Shown here piece after piece: positions 10,729-12,924 of a stretch of 14,135 bases of DNA (positions are counted from its first letter, which is position 1; each line of letters starts with the position of its first letter). Position numbers and translations under genes: made by a program. This DNA is from Candidatus Methylomirabilis sp. (GTDB lineage: Bacteria; DYJV01): the NCBI GenBank assembly GCA_020722945.1, contig DYJV01000015.1, forward strand, positions 1 to 14,135, read 5' to 3'. The notes under the pieces are model-generated. The model saw only the letters and a program-made list of their open reading frames with translations, was not told the DNA's origin and made no database searches.

Positions 10729-11250
10729 ATGAATTTTTTTACTCAAAAGAAGTGGTCCCCATATTTAGGGGGATTTTTACTTGGTATTTTGCTACTTGTA
10801 GCAGTATATTTCTCAAACAAAGCGTTAGGAGCTTCGTCAGCATTTACAAGATTTGCAGGATTTTTTGAGCAGTTCTTTATGAAAGATCACTTTTCTCAAC
10901 TACTCTACTACAAACAGTATAAACCTTATGTAGATTTTACAGTTCTTTCTCTTATTGGAATGTTTTTTGGAGGTTACCTATCTGCAAGATTTTCAAATGA
11001 TATAAAAATAAGACTGATCCCCAAATTATGGGAGAAAAGATTCGGACCCAGCAAAACTTTAAGAATAGTAGCAGCACTTATCGGAGGAATTTTTGTAGGT
11101 TTTGGAGCAAGAATGGCAGGTGGTTGCACAAGTGGTCAAGGTATCAGCGGAGGCTCTTTTTTAAGTGTGAGCGGATGGCTTGCAATATGTTTCTTTTTTC
11201 TCGGTGGGATTATTACTTCATTTATACTATTTGGAAGAAAAGATTACTGA
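10729..11250 (+). CDS. YeeE/YedE-family sulfur transporter, N-terminal half
   Basis: A 173-residue membrane protein with hydrophobic segments at about 11-30, 68-86, 112-127 and 147-167. The motif GARMAGGCTSGQGISGG (126-142) is the signature of the YeeE/YedE (Sulf_transp, DUF395) family; Cys133 corresponds to a substrate-relay cysteine in the thiosulfate transporter TsuA. In TsuA-like proteins two such halves form one chain. Here they are separate genes, with the partner starting 30 nt downstream. Thiosulfate, another sulfur species or selenium are all possible cargo, since some YedE proteins are linked to selenium uptake by gene context. It is first in the operon and ends with TGA (11248-11250), which shows that UGA acts as an ordinary stop in this organism. 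Confidence 0.9.
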   Translation: MNFFTQKKWSPYLGGFLLGILLLVAVYFSNKALGASSAFTRFAGFFEQFFMKDHFSQLLYYKQYKPYVDFTVLSLIGMFFGGYLSARFSNDIKIRLIPKLWEKRFGPSKTLRIVAALIGGIFVGFGARMAGGCTSGQGISGGSFLSVSGWLAICFFFLGGIITSFILFGRKDY

Positions 11251-11266
11251 TTTAAAGGTTAAGGGT

Positions 11267-11274
11267 AAGGAGGT
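11267..11274 (+). promoter_or_regulatory. Perfect Shine-Dalgarno of the second transporter half
   Basis: AAGGAGGT, fully complementary to the anti-Shine-Dalgarno of 16S rRNA, lies 6 nt before the ATG at 11281. Strong initiation argues that this gene is actively translated and not a decaying fragment. Confidence 0.8.
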
Positions 11275-11280
11275 ATTTTT

Positions 11281-11817
11281 ATGGTTTATATTTTTCCTAT
11301 TTTAGTTGGTATTATATTTGGTTTTCTTCTCCAAAAGACAGAAATTACCAAATTTGAAACAATAGTCAATGTGTTGAGATTCAAAAATTTTACTGTGATA
11401 AAGTTTATGATGACAGCTATTGCTGTTGGTATGGTTGGAGTCCATCTTATGATGGAGTTTGGAGTATTGACCAATGTTATAAGATACATCTCTCCTACAA
11501 ATATTGCAGCTATTGCTGTTGGCGGGACAATATTTGGAGCAGGCTTTGCTCTATTAGGTGGCTGACCTGGTCAATCTGTAGCTGCCTTAGGTGAAGGCAG
11601 ATTAGACTCATTCTGGGGGATAGTAGGTATATTTATTGGTGCATTTATATATGGTGAAAGTTACAATTATTTTGCTGAAAATCTACTTTCAATAGGTAAT
11701 TTGGGTAAAATTACATTCCCAATACTATTTAATCTTTTAAACCCATGGGTGATTATAATACCTTTCTTAATTTTTGTAATGATTCTATTTTTTATATTGG
11801 AGAGGTTTAGACTATAA
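11281..11817 (+). CDS. YeeE/YedE-family transporter, C-terminal half; probable selenoprotein (Sec95, UGA)
   Basis: Read through the TGA at 11563-11565, this is a 178-residue membrane protein ending at a TAA (11815-11817). Hydrophobic segments are at about 3-17, 38-58, 75-94, 112-126 and 152-174. Around the TGA the protein reads GAGFALLGG-U-PGQSVAALGEGRLDSFWG. Family members have a conserved Cys in the corresponding G-x-C-P-G motif, followed by the same A-A-x-G-E-G-R/K-x-D block, so the UGA replaces exactly the functional cysteine. A hairpin suited to be a bacterial SECIS follows (11582-11600). The frame stays open for 83 further codons with normal family sequence and no other disruption, and the gene has a perfect Shine-Dalgarno. 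It pairs with the upstream half to make one transporter. A conventional caller would report a 94-aa ORF (11281-11565) or a pseudogene. A nonsense mutation is the main alternative but would not explain the hairpin. selA, selB, selC and selD are not in the window. Confidence 0.85.
11563..11565 (+). other. In-frame TGA, probable selenocysteine codon
   Basis: Codon 95 of the transporter half. It falls between GCTTTGCTCTATTAGGTGGC and CCTGGTCAA, coding GG-U-PGQ, at the position of the family's conserved cysteine. Tryptophan recoding is unlikely: the same gene uses TGG elsewhere and the upstream gene ends with TGA. Confidence 0.82.
11582..11600 (+). promoter_or_regulatory. Putative bacterial SECIS hairpin
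   Basis: CTGCCTT (11582-11588) pairs perfectly with AAGGCAG (11594-11600) around the 5-nt loop AGGTG. The loop begins 23 nt after the TGA. Known bacterial SECIS elements are hairpins just after the UGA, with the apical loop roughly 16-37 nt downstream and a G among its first two positions. This one has G in position 2 and the GGU run that SelB reads in the E. coli fdhF loop. The hairpin lies wholly within the coding sequence, over codons for conserved residues. A competing shorter pairing, AATCTG (11573-11578) with CAGATT (11598-11603), is also possible. Confidence 0.78.
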
Positions 11818-11835
11818 AAGGATTAGGTATTAATT

Positions 11836-12012
11836 ATGGCACCAGATATAGATAGAAGCAGATGTATCAACTGCCTTGTATGTGTTGATATATGTCCCTA
11901 CGATGTTTTCAAAAAAGTAGATGGTATAGCTAAAGTTTTTTCTCCACAAAACTGTATAGAGTGTTCAGAATGTATCCGTAACTGCACCAGCAATGCAATC
12001 TCCCTAATATAG
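11836..12012 (+). CDS. Small 2[4Fe-4S] ferredoxin
   Basis: A 58-residue protein. Two cluster-binding motifs are visible: CINCLVCVDICP (residues 10-21, C-x2-C-x2-C-x3-C-P) and CIECSECIRNCT (40-51), where the usual proline after the last cysteine is replaced by threonine. Length and spacing are those of bacterial-type ferredoxins, so it is a soluble cytoplasmic electron carrier. The ATG lies 18 nt after the transporter stop. Its ribosome-binding site is weak (AAAGGA about 14 nt upstream, AGG closer), suggesting translational coupling. Its place between a sulfur transporter and a heme-domain membrane protein suggests it supplies or takes electrons for handling the imported sulfur or selenium species. 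That role is inference. Confidence 0.9.
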   Translation: MAPDIDRSRCINCLVCVDICPYDVFKKVDGIAKVFSPQNCIECSECIRNCTSNAISLI

Positions 12013-12027
12013 ACAGGACTGAAAAAA

Positions 12028-12924
12028 ATGGATGGATTAGATATATACAACAAATATTACAAGCTCGACTCCTATGAACAAAATGTAATTTCTGAGGTAT
12101 CTCAAATTGTTAATGAGAATTTAGAAATATTCAGTAACAATCTCATTACCTTTTTTACTTCTGAAAGTGAATTAAATGACTTTTTTAAAAAAGATAACTT
12201 TAAGGAGCACCTTTCAAAAAGGAGTAAAGAGTGGTTGATGACTATATTCTCAAATAAAATTGACTCCAATTATATAAAATATATCACTAAAATTGGAATA
12301 GAACATGCCAAAAATAATCTACCACCCCACTACTTCAATGTTAGCATAGGAATAGTCCGTTCTACCCTTACAAAGTTGGTAAGGGAGTATCATAGTGATG
12401 TTGATAAGAGAGTTACACTGATAAATGCAGCAAACAAAATTCTTGATTTTAACCTTGATGTTATCAACTCTACATCCAGAGTTACTGAGATTGAGGATAA
12501 ATTTTTAAAAGAGAAGTTAGAGAGTGGGCTGATAAGATTTGCTAAAGGTTTCTCACATTTTTTGAATATAATCCTCGTCTTTTTACTTGTCATCCTTTCT
12601 GTCTCTGTTTTCGGTTTTTTCGTTCAAGATTTCTCTCATATAATACATGGTAATATAGAGAAAGGTATTATCACATCACTTGGAACAATGCTTGTTCTCT
12701 GGATGATGATAGAACTTATAGAGGTCGAAATCACAAACCTCAAAACCAAAAAAATAAATTCTAAAGTATTTATAAGTGTTGTAATTGTTGCCTTTATCAG
12801 AAAAATCTTAATCACTACTTTTGACAAACCAGAAATAGAGAAACAGATATTTTTTGTTGCAACAGTCCTCGTATTAGCAATAGTCTATTTTTTACTTTCA
12901 AAGAGTGAAAAGAAAAATGAATAA
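12028..12924 (+). CDS. Protoglobin-like heme domain fused to PsiE-like membrane domain
   Basis: A 298-residue protein with no signal peptide. Residues about 5-160 resemble the globin domain of protoglobins and globin-coupled sensors. The stretch KYITKIGIEHAKNNLPPHYF (84-103) matches their F-helix pattern (R/K-I-G-x-x-H-x-x-x-x-L-P-P-x-W/Y-Y), making His93 the probable proximal heme ligand. Residues about 178-291 hold four hydrophobic segments (178-200, 214-232, 247-264, 273-290). The loops IIELIEVEITNLKTKKI and VAFIRKILITTF resemble the phosphate-starvation-inducible PsiE family (I-E-x-x-x-Y-L-K and A-x-x-R-x-I-I patterns). It therefore looks like an O2/NO/CO-binding cytoplasmic sensor joined to a small membrane domain of unknown action. 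The gene is 15 nt after the ferredoxin, with AGGA as a modest Shine-Dalgarno. The globin call is firm; the PsiE call is by pattern and less certain. Confidence 0.75.
   Translation: MDGLDIYNKYYKLDSYEQNVISEVSQIVNENLEIFSNNLITFFTSESELNDFFKKDNFKEHLSKRSKEWLMTIFSNKIDSNYIKYITKIGIEHAKNNLPPHYFNVSIGIVRSTLTKLVREYHSDVDKRVTLINAANKILDFNLDVINSTSRVTEIEDKFLKEKLESGLIRFAKGFSHFLNIILVFLLVILSVSVFGFFVQDFSHIIHGNIEKGIITSLGTMLVLWMMIELIEVEITNLKTKKINSKVFISVVIVAFIRKILITTFDKPEIEKQIFFVATVLVLAIVYFLLSKSEKKNE

Follow-up and report, generated by a model that had tools for sequence, protein, structure and literature searches.

Two short genes on the forward strand of the window (i.e., the whole 14,135-nucleotide stretch of DNA analyzed) encode what we predict to be a split YeeE/YedE transporter, PmpA plus PmpB (10729 to 11817). 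The first gene (10729 to 11250) is pmpA-like, keeps a cysteine in the motif GGCTSGQ (corresponding to TsuA Cys293), and ends with a normal TGA stop. The second (11281 to 11817) is pmpB-like and is preceded by a Shine-Dalgarno sequence (AAGGAGG; 11268 to 11274, forward strand) about 7 nt from its ATG. The Pfam Sulf_transp profile (PF04143; gathering cutoff, 27 bits) matched both products (PmpA, 96 bits; PmpB, 72.5 bits, E value of 5.6e-20), covering the C-terminal part of the profile in PmpA and the N-terminal part in PmpB. An open reading frame call closes pmpB at a TGA codon (11563 to 11565, forward strand) and returns a 94-aa product (11281 to 11565), as a reading of the sequence without database searches (here, the sequence-only reading) had anticipated. 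With this TGA taken as selenocysteine (Sec), the frame extends 83 codons further to a TAA (11815 to 11817), giving 178 aa with Sec as residue 95. The gene contains no other stop or frameshift, this is its single in-frame TGA, and the region after it aligns as conserved family sequence. A gene for a small 2x[4Fe-4S] ferredoxin (58 aa; 11836 to 12012, forward strand; Pfam Fer4) lies 18 bp downstream and is a probable member of the pmpAB operon; its best NCBIfam match was the mercury methylation ferredoxin HgcB, below the cutoff. Starting 15 bp after the ferredoxin gene, positions 12028 to 12924 encode an N-terminal protoglobin domain joined to a C-terminal PsiE membrane domain, possibly a heme-based sensor linked to the transporter.

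The TGA column was occupied by Cys in all 11 aligned Cys relatives and by TGA in one other sequence. Using phmmer, residues 7 to 131 of PmpB aligned with residues 6 to 125 of the TsuA structure 6leo, which places residue 95 at chain residue 91. PmpB thus aligns with the N-terminal half of TsuA and carries an in-frame TGA at the column of Cys91, the second pore cysteine. The family pattern containing this TGA had 0 expected occurrences in 200 shuffles of the window. The closest relatives of the window PmpB were only about 44 to 47% identical to it. The sequence-only reading had placed the TGA at the conserved cysteine of the family, with 83 codons of family sequence after it, and both statements agree with these alignments.

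Among 60 genomes from a search for relatives, the same TGA was present in one other (G049, Candidatus Tectomicrobia; loci L010/L079), around which the phylum search covered a single genome. A pattern scan of genome contigs (glycine framework plus TGA-Pro-Gly) detected at least 118 loci with TGA; besides the window, at least 115 proved to be true PmpB/YeeE halves carrying TGA at the Cys column (PmpB profile, >60 bits). The profile check identified L063, L064, L152, and the sole viral match, L157, as chance matches to the pattern, and these were discarded. Among the matches listed, the TGA-PmpB loci span about a dozen phyla; the hosts include Anaerolineae and other Chloroflexota, Desulfosporosinus and related isolates, Acidobacteriota, Nitrospirota, Nitrospinota, metagenome-assembled genomes (MAGs) labeled Desulfobacterota/Deltaproteobacteria, KSB1, Latescibacterota, Spirochaetia, SAR324, Methylomirabilota, Tectomicrobia, and a few proteobacterial MAGs.

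The source genome of the window, a draft with 5.8% contamination, encodes the complete selenoprotein machinery, i.e., tRNA-Sec (selC; anticodon TCA), SelB (350.9 bits, over the cutoff), SelA, and SelD. SelB reached the curated cutoff in 28 of 35 TGA-PmpB genomes versus 2 of 14 control genomes. Most of the seven TGA-carrying genomes without SelB over the cutoff were draft MAGs, and one of the seven (G063) contained a SelB piece without its N-terminal part. The SelD gene of the window's genome (L035:1483-2523) is likewise interrupted by an in-frame TGA (AAGUAGKL) and lies downstream of a yedF-like gene; its product is a further predicted selenoprotein of this organism.

A SECIS-like hairpin (CTGCCTT-AGGTG-AAGGCAG, with GGU in the loop) lies at 11582 to 11600 on the forward strand. 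Its loop AGGTG occupies positions +24 to +28 after the TGA (about 23 nt), which agrees with bacterial SECIS elements (hairpin approximately 16 to 37 nt downstream, G in the apical loop), an agreement that is not significant when taken alone. The hairpin, treated as a plain 7-bp stem-loop, has a value of -10 kcal/mol; the 50-nt region folded alone gave a z score of -1.07 and a minimum free energy fold that differs from this stem-loop. An Rfam scan of 11000 to 12000 returned chance-level matches only. Because this z score is unremarkable, the evidence for the window hairpin is comparative. Single-sequence folding of 51-nt regions was also weak (mean z, -0.73), and we therefore adopted a control in which local-hairpin scores 12 to 34 nt past the Sec or Cys codon were compared with those of synonymous-codon randomized versions. 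The score exceeded this control in all 119 Sec-PmpB rows, in which a few contigs are represented twice, and in 39 of 39 Sec-PmpA genes, whereas it did so in 45% of Cys-PmpB (n = 53) and 53% of Cys-PmpA (n = 19) genes. Every Sec gene thus has a hairpin beyond codon constraint downstream of its Sec codon, whereas Cys homologues do not have one after the Cys codon. Loops in the Sec genes (GGT, GGTC, GGC, and the like) stand at constant offsets, and the stem pairs vary (GC/AT/CG/TA). Native arms paired better than swapped arms, clearly so in three of five registers; one register was too invariant for this test, and that of the window comprised three sequences only. One of these, L049, has the same architecture with changed pairs (CGGCCTT-CGGCG-AAGGCCG), and the L145 hairpin is less perfect, with one mismatch.

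The Cys column, the complete Sec machinery, the SECIS-like hairpin, and the same TGA at at least 115 other loci together support the Cys-to-Sec replacement put forward in the sequence-only reading, which had pointed to selA, selB, selC, and selD, to the same TGA in relatives, and to hairpins beside it as checks. We consider it very probable that codon 11563 to 11565 encodes Sec and that PmpB is a selenoprotein, as predicted from these comparisons. At UGA 11563, the adjacent downstream hairpin would direct SelB and tRNA-Sec to insert Sec.

The PmpA half can also carry the Sec codon, and in Desulfobacterota it often has one TGA. In 39 fetched loci, PmpA had TGA in GU[PT]SGHG (GUPSG or GUTSG) and PmpB had Cys; the same sample contained 15 Cys/Cys pairs and 4 pairs with Sec in PmpB. 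In the pattern-scan set, among the matches listed, a Cys-containing PmpA accompanied Sec-PmpB in 104 rows, Sec was present in both halves in 2 rows, and the partner was not detected in 11. There is a strong tendency toward one Sec per PmpA/PmpB pair; each sample was picked for one Sec site and rows are related, so we do not treat this near-exclusion as a law. The stricter statement that Sec never occurs in both halves was rejected, as L049 and L145 carry TGA in both. In these double-Sec pores (L049:2545 and L145:839), a hairpin follows each TGA. In a phylogenetic tree, the window PmpB fell in a group with an SH-aLRT value of 94, whose other members were mainly Sec-PmpA or all-Cys pairs and in which it was the only member in the sample with Cys in PmpA and Sec in PmpB. 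The row with the highest identity to it (47%) was the double-Sec L049. The best tree implied no fewer than 12 changes among the four Sec/Cys states, which were strongly clustered on it, and many of its inner branches were weak; Sec was thus probably gained or lost repeatedly in these pairs.

TsuA (YeeE) of Spirochaeta thermophila (PDB 6leo, 8j4c, and 8k1r) is homologous to the window PmpB and shares the essential Cys91 column. It is, however, a fused single chain with Cys throughout and a third pore cysteine, Cys22, whereas in the window the transporter is split over two genes, column 91 is Sec, and the region of Cys22 lacks Cys. The window PmpB scored below the cutoffs for TsuA thiosulfate transporters (NF052577 and NF041049; 37.5 of 400 and 24 of 645 bits, respectively). 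PmpA and PmpB of Serratia and relatives have the split arrangement, with PmpB corresponding to the N-terminal half and PmpA to the C-terminal half of TsuA (PMC11582611). Like the window pair, they are two short genes with one conserved Cys each; the described examples contain Cys only, unlike the window PmpB. In TsuA, Cys91 (the PmpB cysteine) and Cys293 (the PmpA cysteine) are both indispensable (PMC11582611), and the thiosulfate path is lined by C293, C91, and C22 (PMC11073785).

A gene for a PhsA/PsrA-type molybdoenzyme was located within 4 kb on the same strand at 81 of 116 Sec-PmpB loci, among the matches listed, and is accompanied by an Fe-S subunit. Rhodanese genes were near 25 loci, 7 of which also had the PhsA-like gene and 18 of which had rhodanese only; the PhsA-like gene alone was present at 74. 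In an Anaerolineae (Chloroflexota) locus (L047:976-5126), Sec-pmpAB lies directly upstream of an operon for PhsA-like, Fe-S, and NrfD-type membrane subunits, and PhsA-like and Fe-S genes occupy the same place beside Sec-pmpAB in Desulfosporosinus (L135). The window operon has the ferredoxin and protoglobin-PsiE genes instead of the PhsA-like genes, and these neighbors do not themselves name a substrate. On the basis of the neighbors of Sec-PmpB relatives and TsuA biochemistry, thiosulfate, polysulfide, or some other form of sulfane sulfur is the most likely substrate. PmpA and PmpB would share one pore in which the central cysteine (Cys91) is replaced by Sec and the outer one (Cys293, in PmpA) remains Cys. 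The Cys-Sec pair may hand along sulfane sulfur, thiosulfate, or polysulfide, and the more acidic and more nucleophilic selenol would allow faster transient capture and release.

A selenium compound as the cargo of a genuine Sec-containing pore, as proposed for YedE/TIGR04112, is an unlikely alternative that nonetheless keeps some probability. The window PmpB resembles the putative selenium transporters YedE/FdhT (TIGR04112, NF033796) at the family level, both come from SelD-using hosts, and its best NCBIfam match was TIGR04112, "putative selenium transporter" (E value of 2.3e-11). The score of 43.5 bits is, however, far below the cutoff of 200, the match to NF033796 likewise fell far below its cutoff, and YedE proteins reportedly retain the conserved Cys (PMC5322559). 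Moreover, pmpAB in the window's genome is adjacent to neither selD nor yedF, and the Sec relatives adjoin thiosulfate/polysulfide reductase-type and rhodanese genes. It is very improbable that pmpB is a Cys gene altered by a sequencing or assembly error, or else a pseudogene with a real nonsense mutation: TGA is one base from TGC and TGT and the genome is a draft, but the same codon recurs across many phyla, isolates included, a hairpin stands at the expected place beside full Sec machinery, and the gene has an intact frame with a Shine-Dalgarno sequence. Slightly less probable still is a selenium-dependent switch in which the 94-aa product made at low selenium has its own role; truncation would be automatic without Sec insertion, but a conserved feature for the truncated form was not found and the sequence after the UGA is conserved in the family. 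General reassignment of TGA (code 4 or 25 type) would account for an in-frame TGA but has negligible probability, given the tRNA-Sec with anticodon TCA, SelB in other TGA-carrying genomes, a single TGA exactly at the Cys column, and the true TGA stop of pmpA, where read-through would add only 3 codons.

The predicted Sec insertion at the PmpB site places the window PmpB within a known kind of selenoprotein, because YeeE/YedE (PF04143) is already listed as a predicted prokaryotic selenoprotein family (motif GUxSG; WP_012471001.1) (PMC13188914, PMC9312934). The doubt in the sequence-only reading that this was an established selenoprotein family therefore fails for the family and stands for the site. 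The published Sec-YeeE has the same kind of Cys-to-Sec swap in a pore half. Judged from the motif, GUxSG of the reviews fits the PmpA half (TsuA Cys293), whereas the window has Cys in PmpA and Sec at the PmpB site in GUPGQ, which does not match GUxSG. The main texts of GOS 2008, ISME J 2016, and deep-Sep give no description of the Sec site of the family. Within the literature searched, three features appear to lack precedent: Sec at the PmpB site, how broadly it is distributed, and the almost exclusive limitation to one Sec per pore pair. The published motif thereby gains a second site, which is apparently common and associated with sulfur respiration operons.

We tentatively propose, with slightly less than even confidence, that YeeE/YedE pores are widespread and mostly overlooked selenoproteins in which Sec takes the place of one cysteine of a stacked pore pair (central Cys91 or outer Cys293), rarely of both, and has moved between the sites several times, and that they form a Cys-Sec chalcogen relay carrying sulfane sulfur across the membrane in cooperation with thiosulfate/polysulfide reductases or rhodaneses. 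Gene callers truncate the Sec-PmpB transporter in many genomes. Given that the benefit of a selenol should be much greater for nucleophilic exchange than for hydrogen bonding, the recurrent natural Cys-to-Sec swap at either of the two pore cysteines offers a ready-made test between passage of whole thiosulfate via hydrogen bonds and covalent persulfide exchange. Fused YeeE proteins of approximately 370 to 400 aa, with their halves ordered as in TsuA, also use the central site: at L040, L060, L068, L081, L099, L131, and other loci from Nitrospirota and proteobacterial MAGs, Sec replaces Cys91, and the second half has Cys (GGGCT[ST]G).
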